A DNA stretch of 64,000 bases from Oscillatoria princeps RMCB-10. GTDB taxonomy: Bacteria; Cyanobacteriota; Cyanobacteriia; Cyanobacteriales; Oscillatoriaceae. Below, piece after piece: positions 40,721 through 60,985 of this stretch (position 1 is the first letter of the stretch; each line of letters starts with the position of its first letter). The notes under the pieces were generated by a model. It made no database searches and was not told the DNA's origin. It worked only from the letters and a program-made list of their open reading frames with translations. A program made the position numbers and the translations under genes. The stretch spans positions 372,001 through 436,000 of the forward strand of contig JAHHHT010000001.1 of NCBI GenBank assembly GCA_019359235.1, read 5' to 3'.

Positions 40721-40736
40721 AATACAGTTATTCAAG

Positions 40737-40808: not shown

Positions 40809-40872
40809 TCGACTTCATTAATATAGCACAGGCAGCGGAAAAAAAACAAGTAAAGTTTTGTTTCAATTCCGG

Positions 40873-40956
40873 AAGGCGTAGGACAGGCGTCTCGCCTGTC
40901 CCCCTGTCCCCCTGTCCCCCTCAAGGCGTAGGACAGGCGTCTCGCCTGTCCCCCTC
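40873..40956. repeat. Two direct copies of AAGGCGTAGGACAGGCGTCT
   Basis: The same 33-bp sequence, containing the GACAGGCGTCTCGCCTGTC palindrome, occurs at about 40873 and 40923, 50 bp apart, with CCCCCTGT runs between. Located at the radC terminus. Confidence 0.65.
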
Positions 40957-40979
40957 GCGGGCGCACTCCCTCCTCCCGA

Positions 40980-41711: not shown

Positions 41712-42022
41712 AGATGCACCGGCAGATTTTCAAGCGAGAACGGATTTTTTTCAGTTATCTCCTATCACCCCCCTTGCATGGCATCTGCACTACACAATCT
41801 TTAATGTTTCAATTCGGCTTCTGGGATTGACTCTCGCGCCGGTTTTGGGGGATAGGAATTTTTACTCGCTGTGCCGGTGGCCTGCATACAGCGCTCGGGG
41901 GCGGCCACGGGGGGCCGCCCCTACAGATATCAAACGGCAATTGTGCCTAAAGGAGCAAAGGGCAGTGGCAGCCGGTGGTGTGCCATCTTGGAGATTCGCC
42001 CAATCAAGGGGGTGCGACGGGT

Positions 42023-42247
42023 GGGGCTAAAGCCCAACTGCGAACGGGGGCTAAAGCCCAACTACTTTCGGGGGCTAAAGCCCAACTACTTTCGGGGGGT
42101 ACACAGCTGGGGCTAAAGCCCACAGGACTTACGCAGCGACCTTAATTGTGGGGTGGGTTACGCTAGCGCTAACCCACCCTACAGATAGAGGGTTTGCGTA
42201 AGTCCTGGCCCAACTGCGAACGGTGGGCTAAAGCCCAACTGCGAACG
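42023..42247. repeat. Cluster of GGGCTAAAGCCCAACT palindromes
   Basis: Five or more copies of GGGGCTAAAGCCCAACT(G/A) separated by GCGAACGG or ACTTTCGG lie before the dnd island. One copy is interrupted by the 85-bp element at 42123-42207. The rest of the gap 41712-42022 has a CGGCCACGGGGGGCCGCCCC hairpin (about 41901) and no gene. Confidence 0.75.
42123..42207. mobile_element. 85-bp MITE-like element with perfect TSD
   Basis: Bounded by CAGGACTTACGCA (42123-42135) and its exact complement TGCGTAAGTCCTG (42195-42207). The 5-bp target GCCCA is duplicated on both sides (42118-42122 and 42208-42212). Inside is the near-palindrome GGGTGGGTTACGCTAGCGCT(AACCCACCC). It has split one copy of the GGGCTAAAGCCCAACT palindrome, which dates the insertion after that repeat. 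No coding capacity, so it was moved by a transposase elsewhere. Confidence 0.85.
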
Positions 42248-42331
42248 GCCACTGTTGGGCGTGGCGGCTGCCGGCTAAAATTATTCTGACCCGTTTATTT
42301 TCAGGAAAGCTAGCATCTGAGCGCACCAGAG

Positions 42332-43723: not shown

Positions 43724-44043
43724 GGTTAAGTAGGTGGACATTTCTCGTGACGGGCGACCGCAAGGGTGGCTGGGCGACCGCAAGGGTGGCCGTTTGCCCC
43801 TACTGGGAACGAGAAATCAGAGGCAGAGCAGCTGGCGGCGGTAAAATTTTGTAAAGATGTCGTGCCGGCAGAACGCGGTATGATGTTTAATAATGGGACA
43901 GTTTCGCTTTTTTCGCGTCCGCACGGATTCCGATTATTAAGGGAACCTATCCTGTTACTGCAATTCTATCACATCCCAGAAAAAAAGCGCTGGCAAAAAA
44001 CTTTACAATTTGATAAAATAGATTGGACTTAGGGTGCGGACAG
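43724..44043. other. Intergenic region inside the dnd island
   Basis: No credible gene. A 20-bp direct repeat GGGCGACCGCAAGGGTGGC(T/C) is found twice at about 43754-43794. The open frame at 43766-44032 has no coding character. Confidence 0.45.
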
Positions 44044-44217
44044 ATGAGTGACGAAGCGAGTATGAATGACATTCAGGAGCCGATTGCGAGCGCTCCTCCG
44101 GAGATCCGGGAAATTATTGAGCGGGTGTTGCAGGCTGAGAAGGACAAGCTCTATATGAAGATTCCCCGCAACATTAATGATGACATCCTGAAAATTATCA
44201 AGGAAGCCATACAATGA
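44044..44217 (+). CDS. Small dnd-system-associated protein
   Basis: A 57-residue acidic helical protein, MSDEASMNDIQEPIASAPPE then IREIIERVLQAEKDKLYMKI and a C-terminal NINDDILKIIKEAIQ. It matches the layout of the small proteins that accompany SMC-like ATPases in DNA modification islands. Its stop overlaps the ATPase start (ATGA), so the two are translationally coupled and probably form a complex (inference). The start is at the ATG of 44044; MNDIQ is an alternative six codons on. Confidence 0.7.
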   Translation: MSDEASMNDIQEPIASAPPEIREIIERVLQAEKDKLYMKIPRNINDDILKIIKEAIQ

Positions 44218-46286: not shown

Positions 46287-46932
46287 TCGGGAGCCGGTGT
46301 TGCGGGATGCGGTGACGGATACCTGGTGTGCGGCGAGCTGGGAAGATTTTCTGGCGCTGGCTGATGACCCCGCTTATGAGAGGGGCAGATTTTATTACCA
46401 TCAAGGCTATATGAGGATTGAAATGGCAGCAGTTGGCCCGCGTCACGGTCGTCTGAATTCGATTGTTCCCTATGTGGTTGTTCTTTTCGCTGCTCTCAAG
46501 AACATCCCAATTTTACAGTTGGCTAATACCAGTTTCAGGAAAGCCGATTTACAGGAATTTCAACCTGACTTGGCTTTCTACATCGGTTCTGAGTTGAGGG
46601 TGCCTCCTGAAAGCAATTCACCCGTTGATTTGAATGAGTACGATCCGCCGGCACTTGTGGTGGAAGTTGGAGCGACTTCTATCAGTGATGATTTGGGGCG
46701 AAAGCGGTTACTCTACGAACGGGCGGGAGTGCGGGAATATTGGGTGGTTGATGCGAATGCGCGGGAGGCGATTGCTTTTGAGATTTCTCAGGGGCGCAGT
46801 GGTGAAATTCAGGAGTCGCTGGTGCTTCCCGGGTTAGGGATCGCACGGGTTGAAGAAGCCCTAACACGCAGCCAAACTCAGGATGATGGGGAGATTAATC
46901 GCTGGCTGCTGCAAACATTTATGGGAAATTAG
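46276..46932 (+). CDS. Uma2 family endonuclease coupled to the SMC-like ATPase
   Basis: A 218-residue PD-(D/E)XK-type protein: SWEDFLALADDPAYERGRFY, then YHQGYMRIEMAAVGPRHGRL, and the active-site region PALVVEVGATSISDDLGRKR, LLYERAGVREYWVVD. Its ATG at 46276 overlaps the last codons of the ATPase gene by 11 bp, a coupling that most stand-alone Uma2 genes lack. This suggests that it is the nuclease partner of that ATPase (inference). It differs in sequence from the Uma2 protein at 25947. The family activity as a nuclease is deduced from the fold only. Confidence 0.8.
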   Translation: MVSSREPVLRDAVTDTWCAASWEDFLALADDPAYERGRFYYHQGYMRIEMAAVGPRHGRLNSIVPYVVVLFAALKNIPILQLANTSFRKADLQEFQPDLAFYIGSELRVPPESNSPVDLNEYDPPALVVEVGATSISDDLGRKRLLYERAGVREYWVVDANAREAIAFEISQGRSGEIQESLVLPGLGIARVEEALTRSQTQDDGEINRWLLQTFMGN

Positions 46933-47407
46933 ACTTGTTGCGCCAAGTAGCCGGCACCCGCTGGGTGAGGTTGTAGAACGCGCTCGCGTCTCTATAAGTC
47001 CAAAATCAGTCTGTGACGCCATTCTACCCCTTCACCCCCTTGCCTTCCGACGAGCCCTCCCTGCCCCCCCTAAAAAAGGGGGGGTGAAGAGAGGGAAAAG
47101 AAGTTTGTGCCACCGGCTTAATTTTGTAATGATTTTGTAATGCCCTTGAAATGCGGTAAAATAGAGTAGAGTGGGGAGAGCGTCCGCGACGCCGGCAGCT
47201 CACAAGGGAGCATCCCTTTTTTGCAAAGATTTTCACGCCCTCACCCCCCAAGGCACCCCTCTCCCTTCATGGGAGAGGGGGGAAAAAATCAATAATTCTC
47301 CGCTCTCCCCTTGTGGGAGAGGGGTTGGGGGTGAAGGGGAGTACAAAAATGGGATGCTCCCACTCACAGCATTGAATTAAGAGTCCGCCAAACCTGATAT
47401 CAAACAA
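46933..47407. other. Intergenic region with long repeats
   Basis: No gene. It contains a CCCCCCTAAAAAAGGGGGGG hairpin (about 47068-47087), an AT-rich stretch, then AGGGAGCATCCC(TTT) with TTTTTTGCAAAGATT and CACCCCCCAAGGCACCCCTC (47205-47285), a copy of the sequence at 55267-55345. GTGGGAGAGGGGTTGGGGGT follows near 47310. Confidence 0.6.
47205..47285. repeat. 80-bp direct repeat, copy 1 (partner at 55267)
   Basis: GGGAGCATCCC, TTTTGCAAAGATT(T/G)TCAC, CCTCACCCCCCAAGGCACCC and CTCTCCC...GGGAGAGGGG. The second copy follows dndD. Between them lie the assoc-4, DGQHR, dndB, dndC and dndD genes. Confidence 0.7.
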
Positions 47408-47878
47408 ATGGGTGCGCATAGAATTAGAATTGCTAAAGATAAGGCAGAGTTAGTGAAAGCCCTAACCTCCTCAGAGGGCAGCAAAGCCGGCCCTTTTCCG
47501 ACTTATGCTGATGTGATATTGTTTGCGGCAGCTTTGGGGGCGAGGCATAAAAAGCGCTTGCCGGTCGGGGAAATCTCTAAAAGAGAGCCGGGTCCCATTG
47601 AGGAAGATATTTTTGTGGCTAGGGGCTACGATATGGTTATCAAATTGCTGGCTATTGTTGATAATAAAGATGCCCAAATAATCTCTTCCGAGGTAAAATA
47701 TAGCGAGAGACGCATCCATATTTTTGAAGAGTATGCGAATGGGGGGCTTGAGATTTTGCGCGATGAGCTGCGGGGGGCGGTAGACTATACAGAGCGACTT
47801 CTCTTGATGCTCATGTCTGAACGGGTGAAGGATGCGCATTCAGAAGAGGAGTTTGATTTAAGCCGGTTTCTGTCTTGA
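47408..47878 (+). CDS. DNA phosphorothioation-associated protein 4
   Basis: A 156-residue protein matching the dnd-associated family 4: MGAHRIRIAKDKAELVKALT, the loop FPTYADVILFAAALGARHKK, and GGLEILRDELRGAVDYTERL. It is mostly helical and acidic, with no known activity. The start at ATG 47408 lies 470 bp after the Uma2 gene. Its linkage with dnd genes in many genomes suggests a regulatory or structural role; details are unknown. Confidence 0.78.
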   Translation: MGAHRIRIAKDKAELVKALTSSEGSKAGPFPTYADVILFAAALGARHKKRLPVGEISKREPGPIEEDIFVARGYDMVIKLLAIVDNKDAQIISSEVKYSERRIHIFEEYANGGLEILRDELRGAVDYTERLLLMLMSERVKDAHSEEEFDLSRFLS

Positions 47879-47934
47879 AAGGGGGCTTGGGGCGGGAGGT
47901 CCCTGGCGATTAGAAATTCACTGCGACAAACAAA

Positions 47935-47955
47935 GCCCGCCTGCGCGGGCTAAGA
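47935..47955 (+). terminator. Hairpin after the assoc-4 gene
   Basis: AGCCCGC, loop CTGC, GCGGGCT: a perfect 7-bp stem about 60 nt after the stop codon. No T run follows, so the strength is uncertain. A GTTCGTTCTGCGGAACGCAC hairpin lies further on at about 48028-48047. Confidence 0.5.
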
Positions 47956-48068
47956 GAAGAGCGAGACTCTCAAAATCTGCGCGGTTTGTTTCTCGATCCA
48001 GGCTTTGGCTGGGAACGCCTGAAGCTTTGGGTTCGTTCTGCGGAACGCACCCTACTTATTGCAAGCTG

Positions 48069-49670
48069 CTAGTTGAGGATAGGTGGAAGTCCGACTTGCT
48101 TCGGCTCAACAAATTTGCCGTTAAATCCGACTGCTTTGCCTTCAATGGTTCTCGCTTCAGCAAGCTCCAGGCGGATTTCCGCACGCTCCATGCCATCCTG
48201 AATTCCGCCCAGGATATACACTAGCAACCTCGCCGCTAAATCCCTTCCAGAAACTAGGACTCGCTTTTTATTGGGGTCATACAAAACTCCATACCAGAGA
48301 GATTCGGGATATTCCATTCCACTGAATCCGCCGTCTACATCGTACTTGCGAAGTTTATCGAAAATGGCTTTGAGGGATAGCTTTTTCTTGAAGACCAGAA
48401 TTCCCATCGCCTGCGCGAAGGCTACTTGCCCAACTGGACGGAAAAGCATATTTCCTTCGCCCCCATTTTTCTCAAAGCAAAACCGGCGCAAGTCGGGCGT
48501 TTCTTCCCCATGAGCGATCCTCTGATAGCTTGGCAGGGTGGCTAAATGGTCGAAAAGTTTGTTAAATTCGTCAATTCCTTCCTGCAGTTCCTCATCTTCT
48601 GGGCGCATGGGAATGAGATTCTTTTTATCCAGGGGTTTCCAGTGGGGGAATTTTGGCCCCAAGTACCGCTCGGACATTTCTTTGAGCGCTTGAAGGGTGG
48701 TTAAGACGGTGGACTTTGCCGCAACAGTGGCGCTGTCCCAATTGACGCGGGGATTGCGACCTTTGATATCTTTTAATAAGGGGTGTGTGACGGAAATTTT
48801 TCTGGCTACAATGGAAAAGCCGTCATCTTCATTGAGTGCGGCGAGCTGTCCCTGGCTCAAGTTTACAGCCATGAGGTTGACGTGCACAAAGATGGATCTC
48901 ACCCGCCGCCGCGCTTCTTCGCGGGTTTCTCCTTTCAGGACTGCTGGGATAAATTCGATGCCTATTTTCTCTTTGGCTAAGCTTTGCAAGTGAGCGGTAT
49001 CGACTTGGTACTGCTCTCGGATGTCTGCGACTGTAATTGCTGCGCCCACCGGTTTTTTGGTTTTGCTGTATCGCTGGAGTCTGCCGGTTTTGATCAGCGC
49101 CATTAAACCCTGGACTCCCATCAGCCGGTGCTGTCCGTCCAGGGCGAAAAGGGAAACAGTTTCTGAGACATCCAAAAGCCCTACTGTGCGGTTTTTGTCC
49201 AGGGGGGTGAAATCGGCGGCTGACTTGAGCGCCTGTCCGTTTTTATCCCATTCTGGTGCTTTTGGGGCGTCCACCCAGGGAGGGCTTTGCACGACCAAAA
49301 CTGCTGGGAATTTGTGGGAGTTCCGCGCCGCTAAATACAGGGCTAAAGGTGCCTGACGCGACCAATCAAGGGGGCGCTGGACAATTTCGTCGATGGTTTC
49401 TTCGGTTCTTATAACGTTGCCGGTGTCGGAGTCGAATTTTTGCCGGAAAAGGGGCAGTTGGGAGGCGAAGCGAATGCGGCTGTCCAGCCATTCTAAGGTG
49501 ACTGAGCCAATGAATGCTTCGGTGTTGCCCATCTGGGTTTTCTGAACGAGAATTTTGTCGTTTCTGAGCAGATATCTGTCCAGCAGCAGGGCGAGCGCTT
49601 GCCGGTCTCGGTTTTCCTGTTCCAGGATTTGGCTGGCTATGTCAGCCGGCGGGTTGGATGGGCTGTTCAT
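48069..49670 (-). CDS. DGQHR-domain protein, DndB-like
   Basis: A 533-residue protein with the DGQHR motif in LFALDGQHRLMGVQGL (residues 178-182). DGQHR is the signature of DndB, the regulator of dnd operons, and of related proteins in modification islands. This protein is 140 residues longer than the DndB at 50310, with little similarity outside the motif region. Further segments: VQKTQMGNTEAFIGSVTLEW near the N-terminus, RRRVRSIFVHVNLMAVNLSQ, and RVLVSGRDLAARLLVYILGG near the end. It has a promoter at 49730-49757. Role inferred: a second regulator or a DNA-binding part of the system. Confidence 0.75.
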   Translation of the reverse strand: MNSPSNPPADIASQILEQENRDRQALALLLDRYLLRNDKILVQKTQMGNTEAFIGSVTLEWLDSRIRFASQLPLFRQKFDSDTGNVIRTEETIDEIVQRPLDWSRQAPLALYLAARNSHKFPAVLVVQSPPWVDAPKAPEWDKNGQALKSAADFTPLDKNRTVGLLDVSETVSLFALDGQHRLMGVQGLMALIKTGRLQRYSKTKKPVGAAITVADIREQYQVDTAHLQSLAKEKIGIEFIPAVLKGETREEARRRVRSIFVHVNLMAVNLSQGQLAALNEDDGFSIVARKISVTHPLLKDIKGRNPRVNWDSATVAAKSTVLTTLQALKEMSERYLGPKFPHWKPLDKKNLIPMRPEDEELQEGIDEFNKLFDHLATLPSYQRIAHGEETPDLRRFCFEKNGGEGNMLFRPVGQVAFAQAMGILVFKKKLSLKAIFDKLRKYDVDGGFSGMEYPESLWYGVLYDPNKKRVLVSGRDLAARLLVYILGGIQDGMERAEIRLELAEARTIEGKAVGFNGKFVEPKQVGLPPILN

Positions 49671-49729
49671 GGGGTGCGGGTTTTAGGCTCTGGGGCTAGT
49701 TTTTAAAAATTATCACTAAAATGTGTTAA

Positions 49730-49757
49730 AGTATAGTTAAGTTTTTTAAAAGTCCAA
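49730..49757 (-). promoter_or_regulatory. Sigma-70-like promoter of the DGQHR gene
   Basis: On the minus strand TTGGAC (49757-49752) and TATACT (49735-49730) are 16 bp apart, in an A/T-rich window. The start codon of the DGQHR gene is about 60 nt downstream. Confidence 0.55.
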
Positions 49758-49759
49758 AC

Positions 49760-50309
49760 TGTGCGATAATGAGATTGTCGGACGGCTAGGAGAGCCGGTG
49801 CTTATCATATAATGTCTGTGCTGTCAACTATCTTGGGAAAGGAAAATTCTGCCGGTGGGTGGCCACACCCAGCCCCAGAGCTGTTTTATTCTCGCTTCGG
49901 GGCAATCCCCTCGTGGTTGCCCCGATCCCGAAAACGCCTAACAGCTCGTGGGTGGCCACACCCAGGGGGGGCGCGGGTGCCGGTTCCCTACAACATCCTG
50001 ATGTTTCTGGGAATGAAACAGCCCCACCCCCAGGCCCACCCCGTCAGCGGGGCGAGCCGGTGGGCAATGCTGTCCCTTCGAGCGTGGGAATTTATTCCTT
50101 ATATTCTCTTCGCGAGTGGGGGGTAGCCGCGAACCGAGAGGGGTTAGACCCCACAATTGTTTGATTTGATGCGCCGTACCGTATCATAGAAGTGCTACTC
50201 TGTCAAGAAGATGGTAAACCACAGAATATATAAGGGAGAAAACCATGACACACACGAGCGCCGAGTCAGTGCCGGTGAGAGAGGGAGGCAACTGCCAATT
50301 TGTCAAGGT
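49760..50309. other. Intergenic region between two DGQHR genes
   Basis: About 550 bp. It holds two copies of GTGGGTGGCCACACCCAG (about 49855 and 49950) and other G/C-rich palindromes. A short plus-strand frame with a good ribosome site starts at 50245 but runs antisense into dndB, and I do not accept it. Confidence 0.5.
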
Positions 50310-51482
50310 TTACCATCCCAGATTGGCTTTGGCCCTAGTGACTGCTATTCTTACTGGATTGGCACCGGCTGATATTTTGTATGGTTTAGCCGTATTTTTG
50401 GGGTTAGGGCTAGATAAAACAACATTTCCCTCCCAAAGATCGCTGCTCCTTGACCAATCGAGTTGAGCCATCTCTGAGACTTTCTCAGCGTCAAAAGACT
50501 CGCTCTCTTTGTCATAAGTGCAGTAGAGCAAGCGCCCTAAAATTTCCAGTCCCACACTCATGCCTAAGAGACAGTTTTCCTTAAATGCACGTACTTTATC
50601 AACTGTCAAGTCGTCTTTAGAGATTTCAAAAATATGTCGAGTCTGGCTGCATTCCGAGAAAAACTGATTCAGACAACTAACCAGAGCTTCCGAGGATGTG
50701 TCAACATCAAAATCTTTAAGCTCATCATCTGGAGCGTCCGCAAAAGCGCAGCTGACAGCCCTAGCTATGTAATTGGTTGTGTAAATCAATTTCTTTTTAA
50801 TGTCGGGAGTTCCTTTAATCTTCTCTGTCTTGCCATAAAACATTGGGACTCGATATACCAAGTTTTTAGTGATGCCAACCCGACCTTCAAACTCGCCGAA
50901 GGACAGAAGCAAGGATTTATCCAGCTGTCGGGTTTGCGCCATATCTCGGAAATCAGTCTGGCACTGGTTAAAGTCTCCTTCTAAAACCAGCGTAATTGGA
51001 AAATCATCCTGCCCAATTAACTCGCCTTCAGGACTTTCAATCAATTCGTGAATCGCACGCTTGCGATGCTGTCCGTCAGTAATGTCTAGTTTAACGCCGC
51101 GAGGAATGGCCACTAAGCAAATGCCCCGACCCAATTCGATAATCTCAATCTTGTTTGGAGCGATATTCGCCGTCAGTGTCCCCAGAATCCAGGGGTGGCC
51201 ATTGCTGGCGCGTTTCAGAATATATTGCTTGATTTCCGCCGCATGACCCTGCACCTCTGGGCGATTTTTGCCAGAATCGGGATCGTTGCCGGTGGAGGGT
51301 TTGGCCTGGAGAAGGGTGGGCAAGTCATGGGCGGGGACATTGATTTGCACCATTTGGCGCTGACCCTGCTGGAAAATCAGCCCGGGATAGCACTTCTGCC
51401 GGTGATACTTGGCGAAGTATGGATCGAGCAAGTCATCAAGTTGCTGGCTCGGTTCAGGCTGGGGGCGGTTGTCTTCTGACAT
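50310..51482 (-). CDS. dndB: DNA phosphorothioation regulator DndB
   Basis: A 390-residue protein with the DGQHR signature in DITDGQHRKRAI (residues about 133-144). DndB proteins repress the dnd operon and influence the frequency of sulfur modification; they bind the promoter region. It also has ELIGQDDFPITLVLEGDFNQ after the motif and a C-terminal KISAGANPVRIAVTRAKANL. The ATG at 51482 is chosen over a TTG three codons up. It is divergent from dndC, with 180 bp between them that should hold the shared regulatory region. The C-terminal end faces the DGQHR gene in the same orientation. Confidence 0.88.
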   Translation of the reverse strand: MSEDNRPQPEPSQQLDDLLDPYFAKYHRQKCYPGLIFQQGQRQMVQINVPAHDLPTLLQAKPSTGNDPDSGKNRPEVQGHAAEIKQYILKRASNGHPWILGTLTANIAPNKIEIIELGRGICLVAIPRGVKLDITDGQHRKRAIHELIESPEGELIGQDDFPITLVLEGDFNQCQTDFRDMAQTRQLDKSLLLSFGEFEGRVGITKNLVYRVPMFYGKTEKIKGTPDIKKKLIYTTNYIARAVSCAFADAPDDELKDFDVDTSSEALVSCLNQFFSECSQTRHIFEISKDDLTVDKVRAFKENCLLGMSVGLEILGRLLYCTYDKESESFDAEKVSEMAQLDWSRSSDLWEGNVVLSSPNPKNTAKPYKISAGANPVRIAVTRAKANLGW

Positions 51483-51660
51483 GTAAAGCAATAAAATGGG
51501 AGAGAAATCTATGCAGGGATTATAACCGATCTCAGGGGGTGTAAACTAGGAATGGTATTTTTCCAAGAAGCAAGCGACCAAGGCCAAACGCCTCGGGCCT
51601 AGCAGGGATGTCACAAGCGGAACAAAAGCCAGAAAACTAGCCATACAGGAGGGTGCAGAG
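51483..51660. promoter_or_regulatory. Divergent dndB-dndC regulatory region
   Basis: Both dndB and dndC must be expressed from this 178-bp region. AGGAGGG stands about 8 nt before the dndC ATG. I cannot point to an operator; the TACTCCCT-like direct elements are not clear. Confidence 0.45.
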
Positions 51661-53214
51661 ATGACAGAAGAGATCCAGCTATCACTATTCCCACCGCGCA
51701 CCGTTGCGGAGCTAGTGGAAGACATACAAATGCTAACTAAGGAAATCCAAGAGTTATACTGTCTGGACGAGATACCCTGGGCGATCGGATATAGTGGGGG
51801 GAAGGATTCAACGGCTGCTTTGCAGCTTGTTTGGAATGCGATTTCCGAATTACCACTCGAAAAACGAACAAAAACAATTTATGTTATTACAAATGATACA
51901 CTCGTAGAGAATCCAATCGTTTCCGCTTGGGTGCGCAATTCTCTGGAACGGATGAAGGTTGCTTCCCAAGAGCAAGGAATGCCCATCGAACCGCACCTTA
52001 CTTATCCTGCAGTAAAAGACACGTTCTGGGTGTGCTTAATTGGGAAGGGCTATCCAGCACCTAGAAACCGCTTTAGGTGGTGTACAGAACGCCTAAAAAT
52101 TAAACCAGCTGACTCTTTTATTCGGGACGTAATTAGAACTAAGGGTGAAGTGATTCTTGTTTTGGGGACTCGCAAGGCTGAAAGTATTCAGCGGGCCAAA
52201 AATATGGCTAAACATAGAGAGTGGCGGCTCCGCGATCGCCTAAACACGAATCCAAGCCGCCCTAACTCCCTGATTTACCTCCCGATTGAAGACTGGCGTA
52301 CTGATGAAGTTTGGATTTACTTAAATCAGTGGCCAAACCCTTGGGGAAACAGCAACAAAGACTTACTTACGATGTATCGGGGCGCTACTGCTGATAATGA
52401 ATGCCCTCTAGTGATTGATACCTCGACTCCAAGCTGTGGCGATTCTCGCTTTGGGTGCTGGGTTTGCACAATGGTCAGTAAAGATAAATCTATGGAGGCA
52501 ATGATTCAGAATGACGAGGACAAAGAATGGATGCAGCCTTTGCTGGATATCCGAAATGAATTGGATATTGAGGACGATCGCGTCAAGAGAGACTTTCGCC
52601 GCATTTACGGGAAGGTCGAACTTTTTGAGCGCAATGTGGATGGCAAGATATCCGTAGAACCGATGCCAGGGCCCTATACTAAAGAATGGCGGGAAAAATG
52701 GCTGAGGAAAGTTCTCGCCGCTCAAACACAAATCCGCAGCACCGGCCCAGAAGAAATGCGGGACATCACGCTGATTACCCTGGAGGAACTGAGCGAAATT
52801 CGCCGCATCTGGCTAGAGGAAAAACACGAATTTGATGACAGCTTGCCCAAAATATACAAGGAAGTCACAGGCGTTGAGTTCCAAGATCCCCGCCCGGGTG
52901 CGGACAGGAGTCTGCTGGGCAGCGATGAGTGGGAGGTGCTCGAAGAAATCTGCACCGGCGATGCCATGCACCTGGAACTGATGGCGAAGCTGCTCAACAC
53001 AGAACGCCAGTTTTACATGAAAGCTCGCCGCACCGGCATATACGACTCCCTGGAGAAGTGCTTTGAAACCAGCTCTCGCTCCAAGGAGGAAGCGATTAAG
53101 AACGCCCACTACAAGCGGGACTTGAAAACGGCTGCCGGTGAGGGCAACATTGCCACCGTTAAACAGCTGACTTGGGCTAGTCTGAAATTCTCAACCAAGG
53201 ATGCAGCTGAGTAG
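51661..53214 (+). CDS. dndC: DNA phosphorothioation sulfurtransferase DndC
   Basis: Iron-sulfur ATP pyrophosphatase of the PAPS reductase family that activates DNA for sulfur insertion, 517 residues. The PP-loop is SGGKDST (45-51). RFRWCTERLKIKP (Cys141) is the second conserved part. The cluster ligands are Cys248, Cys259, Cys266 and Cys269 (PSCGDSRFGCWVC at 257-269), the C-X10-C-X6-C-X2-C arrangement expected for DndC. The C-terminal half is less conserved. The start ATG has a strong ribosome site. It is followed by dndD and dndE on the same strand. Confidence 0.95.
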   Translation: MTEEIQLSLFPPRTVAELVEDIQMLTKEIQELYCLDEIPWAIGYSGGKDSTAALQLVWNAISELPLEKRTKTIYVITNDTLVENPIVSAWVRNSLERMKVASQEQGMPIEPHLTYPAVKDTFWVCLIGKGYPAPRNRFRWCTERLKIKPADSFIRDVIRTKGEVILVLGTRKAESIQRAKNMAKHREWRLRDRLNTNPSRPNSLIYLPIEDWRTDEVWIYLNQWPNPWGNSNKDLLTMYRGATADNECPLVIDTSTPSCGDSRFGCWVCTMVSKDKSMEAMIQNDEDKEWMQPLLDIRNELDIEDDRVKRDFRRIYGKVELFERNVDGKISVEPMPGPYTKEWREKWLRKVLAAQTQIRSTGPEEMRDITLITLEELSEIRRIWLEEKHEFDDSLPKIYKEVTGVEFQDPRPGADRSLLGSDEWEVLEEICTGDAMHLELMAKLLNTERQFYMKARRTGIYDSLEKCFETSSRSKEEAIKNAHYKRDLKTAAGEGNIATVKQLTWASLKFSTKDAAE

Positions 53215-53284
53215 CGCCCCCTCACCCCCTCACCGCCCGCACAAAGGGAGGGGGGAACACTAAATGACGATCTGAGGCAGAACC

Positions 53285-55267
53285 TTGATATTTCTCGAAC
53301 TCGTACTGGAAAACTTTGGCCCCTATCTGGGGCGTCAAGTCATCAACCTCCGTCCGGAAAAGGATGGCAATCCGCGCCCGATTATCCTATTTGGCGGCAT
53401 GAATGGTGGCGGTAAAACCACCCTGATGGATGCAATTCGCCTCGCTCTTTACGGGCAGCGGGCCCAGTGTTCCACCCGTGGCAATTTGAGCTATAGCGAG
53501 TTTCTCACGCAGTCGGTTAACAAGCACACGCCACCCGTTGAGAAAACCCGCATTGAGCTGGTTGTTGAGCATATCGTGGAAAACCAACTGACTGAGTTAA
53601 AAATTGTCCGCTATTGGACACCAAATCCGAAAGACGGCAAAGATACCTTGGGGATTCTGGAGGGGGATTGGCCGGTCACTCACCTGGTTAATACCTGGGA
53701 TGAGTATATTGAAAATCTCCTGCCTCTGGGAATTTCTAATTTGTTCCTGTTTGATGGGGAGCAGGTCAAGGAACTGGCGGAACAGGATACGCCGCCTCCG
53801 GAAGTGGTTGAGGCGATTCAGTCGCTGCTGGGGCTGGAACTCGCGGAACGCCTGTCAGAGGATTTGGATATTCTCGTCAGCCGCAAGCGCAAGGCGATCG
53901 CCAATACCAAGGAACTCGCCAGTTTGGAGGAAATTGAAAAAAAGCTGTCTTCTCAGCAAGCGCAACATGAGGAAGCAAGGCAAGAGATAGGAGCCCTGCA
54001 AAATAAGTTAGACCTAGCCCGCAAGAAGCTGCGGGAAGCTTCGACCAAGTTCACGTTGGAAGGGGGCAAAATTGCGGCGGAACGCAAGCATCTAGAAAAA
54101 CAAAAGGGCGATTTTGAGGCGGATGCCGCCCGCTCGCGTCAGGATATGGTAGAATTAGCTTCTGGCAGTTTGCCGCTCGTTTTGATTGAGCACCTGCTTT
54201 CGCAGGCGGAGGCGCAAGCTGAGAAAGAAACGAAACGGGAACAGGCTACAATGGCGCGAGATATTTTGACGGTGCGCGACGATCGCCTGCTGGAGCGAAT
54301 CGGAGGGATGGGGCTCAGCCCGGAACAAGTTGAGAAAATTAAGTTGTTTCTCGACGAACAGAATCGAGAGCTGGAGCGTGAGATTGGCTGGGATGAAGAC
54401 TCGTGGCTAGGCGCTGATGAGGAAATCAAAGACACCATCGCTAATCTGCTTCGCTACGAGCTGCCGCATCGGGTTAAGATGGCGCAAGAAAAGCAGGTTT
54501 ATCTCAAAAATAAGGAAGAGGAGATTCTCTCAATCGAGAAACAGCTAGCGGGGGCGGCGTCTCCGGAGGTTTACGAACAGTTACAGGAGGCGGTTAACCG
54601 GGCGCAAGCTGATCTGGCGAGCAGTCAAGGAAGCTACGACGCGGGGAAGCGCCGGTGTGATGAATTGCAGGCGGCGATTGCCAAAACAAAAAAAGACCTG
54701 GAAGCGTACAGCGAGAAAAGTATTGAGCGCCAAAATGACGAGCATATCATTGCGGCTTCGGCTAAAGTCCAAGAAACCCTCAAACTTTTCCGGGAGCGAC
54801 TGACTCGCCGAAAACTGAATAAATTAGAGGTGGATGTGACGGAGTGTTTCCGCTATCTCCTGCACAAGTCTGATTTAGTGCACCGGATTGCTATTGACAT
54901 CCATATCTTCAGCCTTTCCCTGTACGATCCTCAGGGGCACCCCGTGCCAAAACACCGGCTTTCTGCGGGGGAGAAACAGCTGCTAGCGATTGCTTTTTTA
55001 TGGTCATTAGCTCGCGTGTCTGGGCGCAACTTGCCGGTGGCTATTGATACCCCCTTGGGGCGCTTGGATTCTTCCCACCGGCAGAATCTGGTAGAGCGCT
55101 ACTTCCCCGCTGCTAGCCATCAGGTGATACTGCTGTCTACAGATACGGAGATTGGGGAATCTGAAGTGGAACGGCTGCGGCTACAGGAGGCTATTGCGCG
55201 GGAATATCTGCTAAAATATCACTCAGCTGAGCGCCAGACAATCGTAGAACCCGGTTATTTCTGGTAG
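53285..55267 (+). CDS. dndD: DNA phosphorothioation ATPase DndD
   Basis: SMC-like ATPase of 660 residues, thought to provide the conformational or nicking step for sulfur insertion. P-loop LFGGMNGGGKTTLMDAIRL (35-53), the FDGEQVKELAEQ segment, a coiled-coil arm with Glu/Lys/Arg repeats, the ABC signature LSAGEKQLLAIAF (about 559-571) and the Walker B VAIDTPLGRLDSS. The start is a TTG at 53285 with GAGG 9 nt upstream; the N-terminus MIFLELVLENFGPY agrees with the family. It stands 70 bp after dndC. Confidence 0.93.
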   Translation: MIFLELVLENFGPYLGRQVINLRPEKDGNPRPIILFGGMNGGGKTTLMDAIRLALYGQRAQCSTRGNLSYSEFLTQSVNKHTPPVEKTRIELVVEHIVENQLTELKIVRYWTPNPKDGKDTLGILEGDWPVTHLVNTWDEYIENLLPLGISNLFLFDGEQVKELAEQDTPPPEVVEAIQSLLGLELAERLSEDLDILVSRKRKAIANTKELASLEEIEKKLSSQQAQHEEARQEIGALQNKLDLARKKLREASTKFTLEGGKIAAERKHLEKQKGDFEADAARSRQDMVELASGSLPLVLIEHLLSQAEAQAEKETKREQATMARDILTVRDDRLLERIGGMGLSPEQVEKIKLFLDEQNRELEREIGWDEDSWLGADEEIKDTIANLLRYELPHRVKMAQEKQVYLKNKEEEILSIEKQLAGAASPEVYEQLQEAVNRAQADLASSQGSYDAGKRRCDELQAAIAKTKKDLEAYSEKSIERQNDEHIIAASAKVQETLKLFRERLTRRKLNKLEVDVTECFRYLLHKSDLVHRIAIDIHIFSLSLYDPQGHPVPKHRLSAGEKQLLAIAFLWSLARVSGRNLPVAIDTPLGRLDSSHRQNLVERYFPAASHQVILLSTDTEIGESEVERLRLQEAIAREYLLKYHSAERQTIVEPGYFW

Positions 55268-55350
55268 GGAGCATCCCATTTTTGCAAAGATTGTCACCCC
55301 CTCACCCCCCAAGGCACCCCTCTCCCAGGGCGGGAGAGGGGGGAAGAATA
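55268..55350. repeat. 80-bp direct repeat, copy 2 (partner at 47205)
   Basis: GGGAGCATCCCATTTTTGCA, AAGATTGTCACCCCCTCACC, CCCCAAGGCACCCCTCTCCC and GGGAGAGGGGGG, in the same orientation as copy 1. Confidence 0.7.
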
Positions 55351-55393
55351 AAGAATGGACATTGAATGGTAATAATTCACCGGATTTGATATT

Positions 55394-55789
55394 ATGGAAC
55401 CGCCAGTAGACCGAATTCGCCTCTCTCAAACTGCTAAGGATCAGCTGACTAAACTGAAGCGGGTCACGAAAATTGACCAGTGGAATATTCTGTGCCGGTG
55501 GGCGTTTTGTCGCTCGCTCGCTGAGCCAACTATCCCTTCGCCGGTGCCGGTTCCTGCTGACAGTAATGTCGAGATGACTTGGCGCGTTTTTGGGGGAGAC
55601 ATGTCTGATCTCCTGACAGTAGCGCTGAAACAGCGCTGCTACAATGACGGCTTGGGCACTGACAGGGAAACTCTCGCCACTCAATTTCGCCTCCACCTGC
55701 ATCGCGGCATTGGCTATCTCGCCGGCGATCCGAATATCAAGAAGATTGAGGATTTGGTAGATGTGGCGGTGCCGGTTCAATCCCCGTGA
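55394..55789 (+). CDS. dndE: DNA phosphorothioation protein DndE
   Basis: Small helical protein of 131 residues that binds nicked DNA; the fifth gene of the classic dnd set. Seen: DRIRLSQTAKDQLTKLKRVT, NILCRWAFCRSLAEPTIPSP, VFGGDMSDLLTVALKQRCYN, FRLHLHRGIGYLAGDP and the tail KIEDLVDVAVPVQSP. The order dndC-dndD-dndE agrees with known loci. Confidence 0.93.
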   Translation: MEPPVDRIRLSQTAKDQLTKLKRVTKIDQWNILCRWAFCRSLAEPTIPSPVPVPADSNVEMTWRVFGGDMSDLLTVALKQRCYNDGLGTDRETLATQFRLHLHRGIGYLAGDPNIKKIEDLVDVAVPVQSP

Positions 55790-55944
55790 CGGAGCAGGCA
55801 CCGCCACACGGCTGAGAAACCTGGTTTCTTAAAGCAGCCAGGTTTCTGAATTTTCGCCGGCACGTCAGCGCTCCCCTTTGCTGGTATAATTAAGGTAAAG
55901 AGCAATTGCCCTTCCTTGTACTGTCCTGAATCCAGAGGTCATCC

Positions 55945-56466
55945 GTGCAAAAATTAGTCCGACTTAAATTCCTAACACTCTTCTTTTCTTTGCTATTGGC
56001 CACCGGCTGCTGGTTTGGGCAGACTCTTCCTGCTTTTGCCCAGCCGTCCTCGCCGGCACTTATCGCCAGCATTTTCTCTTTTTCAGGGAAACCTCCCGCG
56101 AATTTGGGGGTAAAGGAAGGCCATCTCGCGGAGTGCCCAAAAACTCCTAATTGCGTGTCCAGCCAGAGTGCCGACGAGGCGCACAAGATTGAGCCGCTGG
56201 CGTTTGATGCTGAACCGGCAGAGGCTTTGTCTAAACTCAAGGCAGTTCTCCAAAGTCAGAATAATGCTAAAATCATTGCTGAGGGCGAGAATTACCTCTA
56301 TGCGGAGTTTACCAGTCCGATAATGGGGTTTGTTGATGATGTGGAATTTTATCTGGATGAGGGGGCAAAAGCGATTCAGGTTCGCTCAGCCTCTCGTCTG
56401 GGAGAGTCGGATTTGGGAGTGAACCGGCAAAGAATAGAGGCAATCAAAACCCAATTCCATGCTTAG
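55945..56466 (+). CDS. DUF1499 family predicted lipoprotein
   Basis: A 173-residue exported protein. The N-terminus MQKLVRLKFLTLFFSLLLAT ends in a lipobox-like GC (ATGC, Cys22) or in a signal peptidase site after AFA. The DUF1499 pattern is LAECPKTPNCVSSQSADEAH, then LYAEFTSPIMGFVDDVEFYL and IQVRSASRLGESDLGVNRQR. Function unknown; its role in the island is doubtful, because DUF1499 genes are common elsewhere in cyanobacteria. The start is a GTG at 55945 with GAGG upstream. Confidence 0.82.
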   Translation: MQKLVRLKFLTLFFSLLLATGCWFGQTLPAFAQPSSPALIASIFSFSGKPPANLGVKEGHLAECPKTPNCVSSQSADEAHKIEPLAFDAEPAEALSKLKAVLQSQNNAKIIAEGENYLYAEFTSPIMGFVDDVEFYLDEGAKAIQVRSASRLGESDLGVNRQRIEAIKTQFHA

Positions 56467-56819
56467 GTTGATTTGAGAGTTCGGCAAGTTTTCGCTTCGC
56501 TGGGAGGGCGGTTGCCCTCTCAGCTGCGTCTTTTTACAATTGCCGGAACCGGCTGCGGCCAAACTAATAATGCCGGTGCGAGCTACAGCTTGTCCCACTC
56601 TTTCGTGATATTACTAGCTCCCTAAGGGATACAGTCAGCACGGGTTGGCTTTCTCTTTCGGGGTGGGAAAAGTCTGCCGGCTGCATCCGAAATATTTGGC
56701 TCGCCCCGGTACAGCCCACCCACTCCCCAACCAATCCCGCGAGATTTTCAGCCTGGGGGAGCACTTTTATGGTATGCAAGAATCTGTCCCTCTGTTTGCG
56801 CCTACCCCGTCAAACGACT
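56467..56819. other. Intergenic region upstream of the methyltransferase-like gene
   Basis: About 350 bp without a gene. CGGTTGCCCTCTCAGCTGCG and other GC-rich parts only; no clear terminator or promoter. Confidence 0.4.
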
Positions 56820-59768
56820 ATGGCTGATGATTCCATTCCTCTGCCCCCAGAAAGCCCTCCCCCCTCTCGCCCTGTGCTACTCGCCCAGGAAGCCGGCATC
56901 CTCAACCAAGATACCACCTTCCTCGACTGTTCTGGCGACGGGAACACCCCCCGCACCCCTGCAGATATCGTCAACCTCAGCTACACCCTCAACCTCATCA
57001 AATCCCCAGATGAGCGCCGAAACACCTTGCGGCAAGCTTGGGCGCTGGCACGCCAAGTCTTAATCGTTGCCGAAAAAGTTCTCATAGATGACAGAGAAAG
57101 CGGCAAAGTTGTCTTCGGAGATGGCACTTTCACTCCTTGCACTGCCGGCGAGAAATATTTCCAGCACCGGCAGCTCAAAACCTACACCGACAGAGTCCTG
57201 CAAACTGACGCCGTACCGACAGGATTGGGCGTCTATTTCGTATTTCGAGACTCCAGCCAAGCCGAAACCTTTCGCATCTCCCGCTTCCGCTCCCCCATCC
57301 CCATCCCGGCAGCTCGCACCGGCATCCAGCAATTTGAAGAAAACCGCCAACTCCTCACCCCCTTAATGGCATTTTTCAGCGAGCGCGGGCGTCTCCCCAT
57401 CGCCGGCGAACTCCCCCAAGAACCGGAACTGATTGCCAAATTCGGCACCCTGCAAGACGCCTTCCAACTCATCTCGCAAGCCACCGGCTCCCAACAGTGG
57501 GATGCCATTACCGACAAACGCCGGCAAGATATCCTAGTCTACCTTGCCTGCACGCGCCGCCCGATAGAAACCCTGCCCTCTCAAATCCAAAACGACATCA
57601 GCGCCCTGTTCGACAGCCGCCAGCAAGCCGGTGAAACAGTGGGGGAAATGCTCTTGAGTTTGAGCGACACGAATATAATAACAGCCTGCTGCCAAAACAG
57701 CCCAACCGGCAAAAAACTGCCCGGTGCCCTCTACGTCCATATTTCCGCCCTCCCAGCACTCAACCCCTTGCTGAGGATATACGAAGGATTCGCCAGCGCC
57801 ACCACTGGACGCATTGACGGTGCAACCCTCGTTAAATTCAGCACCGACAAACCCAAAATCTCTTATCTATTCTACCCCGACTTCGACACAAACCCCCATC
57901 CAGCATTGCTGGCTAGCATACAAATTGACCTCCCGGATCTGCGGATCGCCTATCGCGACTATAGCGCCTCCGACAATCCGCCGGTGCTGCACCGAAAAGA
58001 TGCCTTCGTCACCCCCGACTACCCGCAGTACGAAACATTTGCCCAACTCACCCGCCAAGAAGAAGCCTTGGGGCTTTTAGATCCCGCCCGCGCCATTGGA
58101 ACTCGTCAGGTTTGGCTGCGATGCTTGCAAGACGACGGTTTAGAAATAGAAGGACATCGCGTTGTTCGCCGGCTTGAAGGCGTGCCGGTGGAAGCTGGAG
58201 ACGCGCCCGATGGTTCAACAAATTCTTTGGTGCCCAAAATAGAGCGCCACAAAGCCGCCATTGTCCGCAGCGAACTCTCTCGCCCCGTGCGCCTCGCCCT
58301 GGAAGCCGGTCTTTTTAGCGAGAATACCACCTTTTTTGACTACGGTTGCGGGTATGGCGGAGATGTTCAGCGCATCGCACAGCAAGGGCACTGTGCAGCA
58401 GGCTGGGACCCCTACTATTTCCCCAACAATTCCCGCACCCCCGCTGATATTGTCAATATAGGCTACGTCATCAATGTCATCGAAATCCCGGAAGAGCGCC
58501 GCGAAGCCCTCATCAAAGCGTGGGAACTCACCGGCAGAGTTTTGCTCGTCGCCGCCCAAGTTCTGATTGATGACGGAAACAGCGGACAAATTGCCTACGG
58601 TGACGGCGTAATTACCCGCCGCAACACCTTCCAGAAATATTACGAACAGGAAGAGCTTAAAATCTACATCGACCGAATCATAGGCACTGACGCAATTCCA
58701 GCGGCGCTGGGGATTTATTTTGTCTTCCGCGACAGTGCGGAAGCCGAAATATTCCGGATGTCGCGCTTCCGCTCCCGCGCCATCACGCCGAGAGTGCGAA
58801 TCCCCAGCAAGCGCTTTGAAGATTATCAGGAATTGCTGCAACCGCTGATGGCTTTTGTTACCGAGCGCGGAAGGCTGCCGGTGAAAGGCGAACTTGCCGG
58901 TGAGGCGGAATTGCTGGCGGAATTTGGCTATTTTCGCCGCGCTTTTCAGACGATTTTACAAGTAACTGACCCTCAAGAGTGGGAAGCGATTGCAGCTCGC
59001 CGCCGGCAAGACACCTTGGTTTATCTCGCCCTCAAACAAATCAGTCTGGGCGAAGACCGATCGCTCGCCTATCCCAAATACCACGCCCCCGAAATCCAAA
59101 ACGACATCAAAGGACTTTTCGGCACCTACCAAGAAGCGTGCGACACCGCTAGCGCACTGCTCCACAGCACAGGCATTCTCAGCATAATCGCTAAACTTTG
59201 TCAAACCAGCACAATCGGTCAGCAACTCCCCAACGCCCTCTGCGTTCACGTTTGCGCCCTGCAAGAACTCCACGCCATCCTGAGGATTTACGAAGGCGTG
59301 GTTTGCAGCACAATTGGGCGCATGGATGAAGCCACTCTGGTAAAATTCCACACCGACGCGCTGAAAATCTCCTACCTCTTTTATCCCGACTTCGACACAG
59401 ACGCCCATCCAGCCTTGCACACCAGCATGCAGATAGATTTGAAACACCGGCGCGTCACCTACCGGGATTACGACACCTCCGACGAGCCGCCGGTACTGCA
59501 CCGCAAAGACGCTTGCGTCACTCCCGACTACCCGCTTTACAAGACCTTCGCCCAACTCACCCGCCAGGAAGAAAACTGGGGGCTTCTCGATGATTTGAGT
59601 GCCATTCGCACGCGCAAGGGGTGGCTGAAATGTTTGCAAGAACACTGCGCGGAAATTCGCAACCATAAGGTTTATTGGCGCAAAGATGCTGACCCCTACC
59701 GCGTTAAATATTTGCGTTCGGCTAGGGAGGCGCGTCGGAAAAACCGGGAAGCGGGAGAGATCAATTAG
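56820..59768 (+). CDS. Tandemly duplicated dnd-associated methyltransferase-like protein
   Basis: A 982-residue protein of two similar units of about 480 residues. Unit 2 (about 470-982) has NTTFFDYGCGYGGDVQRIAQ (motif I GCGYGGD, 509-515), GWDPYYFPNN (acidic residue Asp530) and RTPADIVNIGYVINVIEIPE, which fit the dnd-associated putative methyltransferase family. Unit 1 (about 1-465) reads DTTFLDCSGDGNTPRTPADI, so 23 residues with motif I and the acidic loop are missing, while the rest is well conserved (for example RQAWALARQVLIVAEKVLID and GLGVYFVFRDSSQAETFRIS). Usual members are about 480 residues. Unit 1 can hardly bind SAM and may be a regulatory pseudo-domain; unit 2 is probably active. 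Start at ATG 56820, not 56769. Confidence 0.88.
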   Translation: MADDSIPLPPESPPPSRPVLLAQEAGILNQDTTFLDCSGDGNTPRTPADIVNLSYTLNLIKSPDERRNTLRQAWALARQVLIVAEKVLIDDRESGKVVFGDGTFTPCTAGEKYFQHRQLKTYTDRVLQTDAVPTGLGVYFVFRDSSQAETFRISRFRSPIPIPAARTGIQQFEENRQLLTPLMAFFSERGRLPIAGELPQEPELIAKFGTLQDAFQLISQATGSQQWDAITDKRRQDILVYLACTRRPIETLPSQIQNDISALFDSRQQAGETVGEMLLSLSDTNIITACCQNSPTGKKLPGALYVHISALPALNPLLRIYEGFASATTGRIDGATLVKFSTDKPKISYLFYPDFDTNPHPALLASIQIDLPDLRIAYRDYSASDNPPVLHRKDAFVTPDYPQYETFAQLTRQEEALGLLDPARAIGTRQVWLRCLQDDGLEIEGHRVVRRLEGVPVEAGDAPDGSTNSLVPKIERHKAAIVRSELSRPVRLALEAGLFSENTTFFDYGCGYGGDVQRIAQQGHCAAGWDPYYFPNNSRTPADIVNIGYVINVIEIPEERREALIKAWELTGRVLLVAAQVLIDDGNSGQIAYGDGVITRRNTFQKYYEQEELKIYIDRIIGTDAIPAALGIYFVFRDSAEAEIFRMSRFRSRAITPRVRIPSKRFEDYQELLQPLMAFVTERGRLPVKGELAGEAELLAEFGYFRRAFQTILQVTDPQEWEAIAARRRQDTLVYLALKQISLGEDRSLAYPKYHAPEIQNDIKGLFGTYQEACDTASALLHSTGILSIIAKLCQTSTIGQQLPNALCVHVCALQELHAILRIYEGVVCSTIGRMDEATLVKFHTDALKISYLFYPDFDTDAHPALHTSMQIDLKHRRVTYRDYDTSDEPPVLHRKDACVTPDYPLYKTFAQLTRQEENWGLLDDLSAIRTRKGWLKCLQEHCAEIRNHKVYWRKDADPYRVKYLRSAREARRKNREAGEIN

Positions 59769-59776
59769 TTGAAATT

Positions 59777-59803
59777 ATCGTTACCGGGCGAGCGTCCGGT
59801 AAC
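59777..59803 (+). terminator. Hairpin after the methyltransferase gene
   Basis: GTTACCGG, loop GCGAGCGT, CCGGTAAC: an 8-bp perfect stem just after the stop codon (about 10 nt). There is no T run, so Rho-independent strength is unsure. Confidence 0.55.
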
Positions 59804-59860
59804 GAGTGTGTTATAATAGCCCCTAAGAACTAGCCTCGCATTCACTTGAAAAACCCAGAG

Positions 59861-60841
59861 ATGAACGTTCGCGCTTTTTACCGAGCCGCAAAAGTCCCGG
59901 CTGAGCCGCCTTACGACACCATTCACCTGAAAGTTTTCTATCCGGCGCGGATGTCGGGTAGCGAACTAGAACGAGATATGGGCATCGTGCCGGCTAACCC
60001 AGAACTGGCTCCCTTTCCGGTGGTGATTTTCTTCGGCGGCGTCAACTGCGGTTATGAAATGTACCAGTGGCTGGCGATTAAGCTGGCTGAGCGCGGGTTG
60101 GTTGCGGTTACATTTGCCTGGGTTGCAGAAAACCTGCCGGGGATAATTGCCCTCACCCCTGGCGTTGACATCGCTATGTCGAAACCCGGCACCTACGGTA
60201 CTGCTCCGACGGCTTCGGCACTGCCGGCACTTCTTGCCGAATTGGAGCGCTTGCAGGCGGAGGGAGTTCTCGCTGGATTGCTTGACCTGGAAAAAATCAT
60301 TTTGGGCGGACACTCTGCCGGTGGCAGACTGGCACTAGAAAACGCCGATACGCGCTTTTTTACCCAAGTGGCGGCGGCTTTTGCCTACGGCGCTCACACG
60401 GCTGCTGCTGTGATGCTGGGGTACGATGCCGGCACAATTTTGCCCCTATTTTCATCGCTGCCAATGCTGCTGATGGGGGGCACACGCGATGGGGTGATTG
60501 CTAAGAGCAGCTTTCGCTATGGCATCAGCCAAGGGGATGCCACCACCTCAGTAGTGCGGACGTTCAGGGAGGCGATTTCTGGGGGGCGAAATGACTGCTA
60601 TTTGATTCTAGTTGAGGGGGCGAATCACTTTTCCCTCGCTCACCCCTCCGACGGCACCACCGGCAGGCCATTTCTAGACTTCCCAGCTACCCAGCCAGAA
60701 GACGAAATCCGCTCTTTGGTAGCTGAAGCGATTGGTCTGTTTATTGACGCTCACGTTCGCCACCAGCCGGCAGCATTCCAAGCGCTGCACCAGCTGCTAG
60801 ATGCTGCCAATCCCCTGATTGCATCCTTCGAGCGCAAGTAA
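59861..60841 (+). CDS. Alpha/beta hydrolase family protein
   Basis: A 326-residue hydrolase of the dienelactone hydrolase/chlorophyllase-like group. The nucleophile elbow is LGGHSAGGRLAL, the oxyanion region VVIFFGGVNCGYEMYQWLAI, the acid is possibly in MGGTRDGV and the His in VEGANHFSL. No signal peptide. The ATG at 59861 is preferred over the TTG at 59846. Substrate unknown. It lies just after the dnd island and has no visible link to it. Confidence 0.85.
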   Translation: MNVRAFYRAAKVPAEPPYDTIHLKVFYPARMSGSELERDMGIVPANPELAPFPVVIFFGGVNCGYEMYQWLAIKLAERGLVAVTFAWVAENLPGIIALTPGVDIAMSKPGTYGTAPTASALPALLAELERLQAEGVLAGLLDLEKIILGGHSAGGRLALENADTRFFTQVAAAFAYGAHTAAAVMLGYDAGTILPLFSSLPMLLMGGTRDGVIAKSSFRYGISQGDATTSVVRTFREAISGGRNDCYLILVEGANHFSLAHPSDGTTGRPFLDFPATQPEDEIRSLVAEAIGLFIDAHVRHQPAAFQALHQLLDAANPLIASFERK

Positions 60842-60849
60842 TCACCGTT

Positions 60850-60985
60850 TGCAGTAAGGACTTTAGTCCTTTCTTATTCTTCTTACTCCCCCTCTCCCCT
60901 TGTGGGAGAGGGGGTTGGGGGTGAGGGGACTGCGGTAGTTCAAGGACATGATATAATGTGGAGACGCGACATATCGCGTCTCTAC
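60850..60985. repeat. AGGACTTTAGTCCT, GGGAGAGGGGGTTGGG and GAGACGCGACAT palindromes
   Basis: Three dispersed repeats in a row: AAGGACTTTAGTCCTTT (about 60856-60872, with a second copy GAGGACTTTAGTCCTC at 62887-62902), CCCCTTGTGGGAGAGGGGGTT (60895-60915, inverted partner at about 4870), and GAGACGCGACATATCGCGTCTC (60961-60982). Confidence 0.65.

Follow-up and report, generated by a model that had tools for sequence, protein, structure and literature searches.

A gene in a DNA phosphorothioation (PT) locus of Oscillatoria princeps RMCB-10 encodes two copies of a putative methyltransferase joined in one chain, the first of which lacks its SAM-binding segment. We consider it probable that the protein goes back to an old in-frame duplication, after which the first copy lost the SAM segment and then more, with its C-terminal domain (CTD) retained, and that it represents an early stage of this course. 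At the level of sequence, we regard four points as demonstrated: the architecture, the deletion shared with relatives, the graded series that first units form, and the fact that first-copy CTDs group together. Throughout, the window denotes the whole stretch of 64,000 nucleotides that was analyzed (contig JAHHHT010000001.1, positions 372,001 to 436,000).

The window encodes a two-unit protein within a dnd locus

The gene is an uninterrupted open reading frame of 982 codons (56820..59768, +). An in-frame ATG at 56769 would give an alternative product of 999 amino acids; the 17 codons at 56769-56819 differ by one base between the window and G391, an assembly of a related species, and the protein may thus be 999 amino acids long. 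The NCBIfam model TIGR04096, named DNA phosphorothioation-associated putative methyltransferase (dnd_rel_methyl), matches the 982-residue protein twice, with 1130 bits in total against a cut-off of 150, and each unit exceeds the cut-off by itself (469 bits for unit 1 and 661 bits for unit 2). Unit 1 (residues 1-472) and unit 2 (residues 473-982) align over 473 columns with 51% identity (E 2e-167), which bears out the first-pass annotation of this DNA, where two aligned units in a single chain had been described.

All parts of the protein lie on the + strand. Unit 1 consists of a methyltransferase remnant (residues 1-155; 56820..57284), a middle part (57285..57692), and a CTD (57693..58169) that is kept in the two-unit relatives seen; a model of 57693-58172 reached a pLDDT of 92.0. 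The linker that joins the units (58170..58235, delimited by the unit alignment) carries no amino acid change in its 22 codons between G000 and G391. Unit 2, also delimited by the unit alignment, is composed of a methyltransferase domain with intact GCGYGGD and GWDP (58236..58766), a middle part (58767..59201), and a second CTD (59202..59672), the last defined by conserved columns as well. Pfam HNH_repeat had no match in the middle parts of the window's two units; the middle part of some relatives gave a weak match, below the cut-off.

Upstream of the two-unit gene and on the same strand are dndC (51661..53214, +; TIGR03183), dndD (53285..55267, +; TIGR03185), and dndE (55394..55789, +; TIGR03184), the end of dndE being 1.0 kb away. 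A dndB-like gene (50310..51491, -) is divergent from dndC-E; it matches Pfam PF14072 with 292 bits and TIGR03233 with 54 bits, below the cut-off of 328. With dndC, dndD, and dndE over their cut-offs, the earlier claim that an in-chain duplicate, its first copy devoid of a SAM site beside an intact copy, belongs to a real dnd locus was upheld. The same region codes for a DndD-like ATPase (44214-46286, +; PADLOC PbeC, 1113 bits), that is, a Pbe-type ATPase beside dnd genes, followed directly 3′ by a putative Uma2-family nuclease (46276-46932, +), and for a TIGR04062 dnd_assoc_4 protein (47408-47878, +) and a second DGQHR/DndB-like protein (48069-49670, -). Terminator-like hairpins flank the two-unit gene (56499-56524 and 59778-59805) and would fit a transcript of its own; seven such sites were counted, as compared to 6.7 expected in shuffles.

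The window is colinear with G391 over 40701-56536 and 56684-59806, in blocks of 93 to 95% identity apart from one of 83% over 294 bp, and G391 carries a 94%-identical two-unit protein in a syntenic dnd locus. The fused protein is therefore present in two assemblies of two species, and an assembly error, the possibility that the first-pass annotation had raised against its own reading, finds no support in this comparison. In G391, ~5.4 kb (C4:627996-633442) intervene between the two-unit gene and the dnd genes where the window has 0.15 kb. Downstream, window positions 59806-60985 gave no blastn block in the matching G391 region; an open reading frame there (59846-60841, +) has a weak esterase match below the cut-off.

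The first unit lacks the SAM-binding segment

Unit 2 carries the hallmarks of a class I SAM methyltransferase, namely, GCGYGGD as glycine motif I and GWDP with the acidic residue of strand 2. Ten residues in this region (D35, G37, C38, G39, G41, D43, G56, W57, D58, and P59) are invariant in 24 rows of main copies. Where unit 2 (58341..58442, +, with GCGYGGD at 58344-58364) and three single-unit relatives have 34 residues, unit 1 has 11 (56928..56960, +), which sit between the aspartate of the first strand and the conserved ADIV. The alignment thus confirmed the reported loss of 23 residues. Its extent had been given as GCGYGGD and an acidic loop; GCGYGGD is indeed gone, but the loss goes beyond a loop and also takes in the next helix and the acidic GWDP strand. 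With this segment, unit 1 is missing both glycine motif I and the strand-2 acidic residue.

We then assessed unit 1 at the columns that are at least 95% conserved among 82 main copies. Its CTD keeps 25 of 25 such columns and its middle part 20 of 21. In the methyltransferase domain, 5 of 24 are kept in the motif I-II region and 27 of 38 elsewhere. Conservation thus declines from 3′ to 5′. The structure model of unit 1 retains a class I methyltransferase fold; with this model as the sole query, the nearest folds were CmoB, Trm9, Hen1, and small-molecule methyltransferases. The catalytic motif of DNA amino-methyltransferases, given as [SDN]PP[FYW] after strand 4 in the sections of PMC10853773 considered here, was not found by eye in the consensus and invariant columns of 24 main copies. 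Judged by its primary structure, unit 1 is a genuine pseudo-enzyme.

The pseudo-methyltransferase is relaxed and the first-copy CTD is held more tightly

The Nei-Gojobori comparison of G000 with G391, which draws on few changes (~33 in the methyltransferase remnant), yielded dN/dS values for unit 1 of 0.69 in the methyltransferase remnant, 0.44 in the middle part, and 0.19 in the CTD; the corresponding values for unit 2 were 0.28, 0.11, and 0.34. In five pairs of family f18, the part before the CTD (methyltransferase and middle) had a dN/dS of 0.17 to 0.27 in unit 1 and 0.04 to 0.075 in unit 2, a 2.6- to 4.4-fold difference, and the CTD had 0.12 to 0.14 in unit 1 and 0.05 to 0.11 in unit 2. 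The pseudo-methyltransferase is relaxed yet still constrained. The unit-1 CTD is held more tightly than the rest of unit 1 and, in f18, somewhat less tightly than the unit-2 CTD. This comparison of the two units had been proposed in the first-pass annotation; the pseudo-methyltransferase turned out not to be the most constrained part (0.69 versus 0.19 for the unit-1 CTD in G000-G391).

The relaxed dN/dS of the methyltransferase remnant is also the one observation that would suit an assembly error or a decaying pseudogene. With 982 codons open, the same protein encoded at the syntenic locus of G391, and a unit-1 CTD under a dN/dS of 0.19, we regard this explanation as barely conceivable.

First units of relatives form a graded series

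The loss is not peculiar to the window protein, as the same segment is absent from the first units of 13 other genomes in two families. The 14 first units concerned (families f1 and f18, window included) have 8 to 11 residues at this site; the 12 genomes other than the window's and G391 have 8 or 9 residues as compared to 34. The frames of these first units are open in all 14 genomes, that of G525 running to the contig end. Twelve of the 14 retain the middle part, and two (G387 and G229) are without most of it. At one end of the series stands the first unit of G453 (family f47), where a 33-residue segment is still in place with its motif changed and where both units are nearly complete. Further along, the first unit begins only at about profile position 250-258 (L045-L047, L136, L157, L174, L197, L199, and L201), and in most other two-unit relatives seen the first copy is nothing but a CTD. 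Open frames are ~483 to 571 codons long for single-unit genes and mostly ~610 to 830 codons for two-unit genes, in which a first-copy CTD precedes the second copy. According to a profile built from long first units, combined with fetched sequences, at least 15 of the order's 388 genomes have a long first unit; G431 and G472 had four matches each to this profile among the matches listed, perhaps reflecting two gene copies.

Beyond cyanobacteria, all nine proteobacterial plasmid loci fetched have a first-copy CTD and have lost the rest of unit 1. In Sphingomonas, the first-copy CTD is a separate upstream open reading frame with a four-base overlap with the methyltransferase gene. Single units are found in Nonomuraea and, split between frames, in Arthrobacter. 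On a Rhizobium sp. plasmid (L095:2510-4292), the gene stops after the first CTD and the methyltransferase, and another open reading frame then carries the middle part and a portion of the second CTD. Matches to the methyltransferase domain only, ~34 to 42% identical, were seen in L040-L042 and in plasmid hits H28-H35 and are possibly stand-alone paralogues.

The first-pass annotation had suggested an asymmetric, obligate intramolecular dimer, in which unit 1 as a whole would be a required noncatalytic partner folding back on unit 2, after the manner of METTL3-METTL14. The methyltransferase fold of the unit-1 model, the open frames of segment-less first units in 14 genomes, and the dN/dS of 0.17 to 0.27 before the unit-1 CTD in f18, well under 1, are in keeping with such a role. 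However, the remnant evolves at a dN/dS of 0.69 in the window's genus and the f18 part at 2.6 to 4.4 times the value of unit 2, and 28 of 28 single-unit genomes carry a lone CTD without a second copy. Because most two-unit relatives seen have kept the CTD and lack the pseudo-methyltransferase, dimerization with a pseudo-enzyme cannot be obligatory in general, and we consider this explanation unlikely.

First-copy CTDs group together in trees

In a quick CTD tree of 168 rows (near-duplicates and L085_C left out), all 72 first-copy CTDs, including eight from Proteobacteria, fell on one side of a single branch with an SH-aLRT of 96. A careful CTD tree of 92 rows united 38 first copies (96/94); in an earlier one of 125 rows, L056, a single unit on a long branch, fell within a group of 50 first copies. 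In a tree of the 405 columns after the segment (51 rows), six long first units (99/97) and 29 second units (96/92) formed clades; single units lay outside both, partly in a grade and partly at that same fork, which was unresolved. Provided that the root is to be placed among the single units, one old duplication would be expected to leave this pattern. The 92-row and 51-row trees are picks from 169 units. For the part between segment and CTD (32 named rows left out, Proteobacteria among them), 12 long first units, including G453 and two of f7, did not come together as one clade when the tree was unconstrained, and a single clade was not rejected (p 0.30); nine loop-less first units clustered weakly (88/79), and the first unit of G453 floated. 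This result speaks against a single old duplication.

A rival explanation is that each lineage underwent a recent duplication of its own and lost the same segment by convergence. When the window genus's own first and second units were forced together, AU tests did not reject the arrangement either for the CTD (cost of 38.5 log-likelihood units, p 0.086) or for the 405 columns (12.65 units, p 0.256). These topology tests are compatible with a recent duplication in that genus. The nearly complete units of G453 point the same way, as does the identity of the window's first-copy CTD, which at 63.8% to its own second copy is as close to it as to most first copies (median 56.9% to other first copies and 60.6% to single units). 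On the other hand, the first-copy and second-copy groups are well supported, the forced pairing of f18's own units was rejected over the 405 columns (p 0.0002), and f1 and f18 share the position of the deletion. Repeated recent duplication is thus quite improbable in our view.

In some lineages, the second-copy CTD is worn in return

We compared CTDs by their scores against a profile of single-unit CTDs. In all eight proteobacterial pairs, the first-copy CTD outscored the second-copy CTD (medians of 91.9 versus 37.2). The cyanobacterial family f9 presented a similar picture in eight of eight fetched genomes, where the second-copy CTD breaks off at position 102-108 of 157 and the first-copy CTD is complete. 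In cyanobacteria, the first copy outscored the second in 23 of 64 pairs (medians of 216 versus 221), so the second CTD is not generally worn there. The 27 main copies classed as single-unit all extend to profile position 474 or beyond. With the second-copy CTD worn and the first-copy CTD complete, some lineages have thus moved toward a permuted order of first-copy CTD and second-copy methyltransferase. A viral open reading frame of 794 codons (L223:2644-5025) consists of a CTD followed by the methyltransferase, with neither a middle part nor a second CTD. A fully permuted, intact cellular gene was not found among the relatives examined. CTD-only proteins occur in an uncultured 485-kb phage genome and a viral contig (L217:2797-3366 and L220:2953-3465, respectively), with no TIGR04096-family methyltransferase among open reading frames of at least 60 codons within ~3 kb.

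In the explanation that we favor, a single-unit gene comprising a class I methyltransferase, a middle part, and a CTD would have undergone an in-frame duplication that put both copies in a single chain. Thereafter, the first copy would have lost the SAM-binding segment, and its methyltransferase and middle part would have been shed lineage by lineage as the CTD stayed, with the second-copy CTD lost or worn down in return in some lineages. The window protein would be an early stage, with little beyond the SAM segment gone. Unit 2 is most likely the sole SAM binder and catalyst. Unit 1 would be a noncatalytic half contributing a second CTD, its most constrained part. The CTDs may position a substrate or a partner protein, that of unit 1 probably being a recognition or docking module for a substrate of the PT system, and the dead methyltransferase would be a scaffold at most, on its way out.

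The graded series, the CTD trees, the tree of the 405 columns, the complementary loss, the dN/dS values, the separable CTD, and the PT link described below all argue for this stepwise loss. Arguing against it are the unrejected pairing of the window's own units, the failure of the 12 long first units to unite between segment and CTD, the placement of L056, the lack of a fully permuted, intact cellular gene among the relatives examined, the 63.8% identity to the own copy, the 23 of 64 cyanobacterial pairs, and the distance from dndC of 62 of 67 two-unit genes.

Comparison with known proteins

The TIGR04096 family itself accounts for part of what we describe, as both window units score over its cut-off and the gene lies by dndC, dndD, and dndE. 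The model, however, is one unit of 478 positions, and its name and length are silent on the first-copy CTD, the dead first unit, and the complementary loss. METTL3-METTL14 is a pair of an active and an inactive methyltransferase formed by two chains. It resembles the window protein in combining an active methyltransferase with a dead paralogue; here, by contrast, both are in one chain, and most relatives seen are without the dead methyltransferase part. Circular permutation by duplication in DNA methyltransferases was reportedly treated by Jeltsch in 1999 and Bujnicki in 2002.

In the sections of PMC3320104 considered here, permutation by duplication is set out as a model with documented intermediates in DNA methyltransferases. 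Its in-frame tandem duplicate with 5′-truncated first and 3′-truncated second copies is matched by the present family, in which we found the whole in-frame tandem duplicate and intermediates with a 5′-truncated first copy; 3′ truncation of the second copy was seen in f9 and Proteobacteria and not in most cyanobacterial pairs. Unlike the process described in those sections, whole domains (methyltransferase and CTD) swap order here, and several stages coexist in related genomes. According to the relevant sections of PMC10853773, DndH, a PT-related protein, contains an inactive methyltransferase of comparable fold with an eroded SAM loop. That domain is of the DAM type and part of a restriction protein with nuclease and FtsK domains, and its likeness to unit 1 is one of description. 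The two-unit TIGR04096 protein does not appear in the examined parts of PMC10853773 and PMC8569181, and the word methyltransferase is absent from the main text of the latter. Our literature searches found no paper devoted to the TIGR04096 family and nothing on its substrate or function.

Permutation by duplication is usually deduced from its end points. In this PT-linked family, living genomes hold several successive steps, namely, a near-complete duplicate, a dead first copy, a stripped first copy, and a worn second copy. Each can be expressed and assayed, which opens a direct way to learn which of the intermediates are functional and for what reason the first half is given up. In addition, the CTD rather than the dead methyltransferase is singled out as the part to study.

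TIGR04096 proteins accompany PT genes across cyanobacterial genomes

Among 386 cyanobacterial genomes, TIGR04096 was over its cut-off in 104 (G159 and G385 being counted from partial matches over the cut-off) and DndC in 94. Ninety-two of these 94 also had TIGR04096; 12 genomes had TIGR04096 alone and 280 had neither. Physical proximity differed between the two gene types: 19 of 25 single-unit genes (open frame of up to 575 amino acids) lay within 15 kb of dndC, as compared to 5 of 67 two-unit genes. Two of these 92 genes come from G197, whose single-unit gene is near dndC (C94) and whose two-unit gene is at another site (C48).

A neighbor survey of 80 named loci, with flanks of up to 6 kb and many contigs shorter than that, comprised 48 loci with a CTD-only first copy and 27 classed as single, the remainder being three intermediate and two long loci. 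One of the 27, L168, is truly a split two-unit gene with its first-copy CTD in another frame; the first CTD is split in L150 and L173 as well. Within these flanks, the neighbors sought were absent from 29 of the 48 CTD-type loci and from all three intermediate and both long ones. The dndD gene of G391 lies 6.9 kb from its two-unit gene, outside the surveyed flank. Two loci may belong to another sulfur-modification system, as the TIGR04096 gene is found beside DUF4007, a 3.5-kb gene, and a PAPS-reductase-family gene in L084 and beside DUF4007, an ATP-binding protein, and a cysteine desulfurase in L089.
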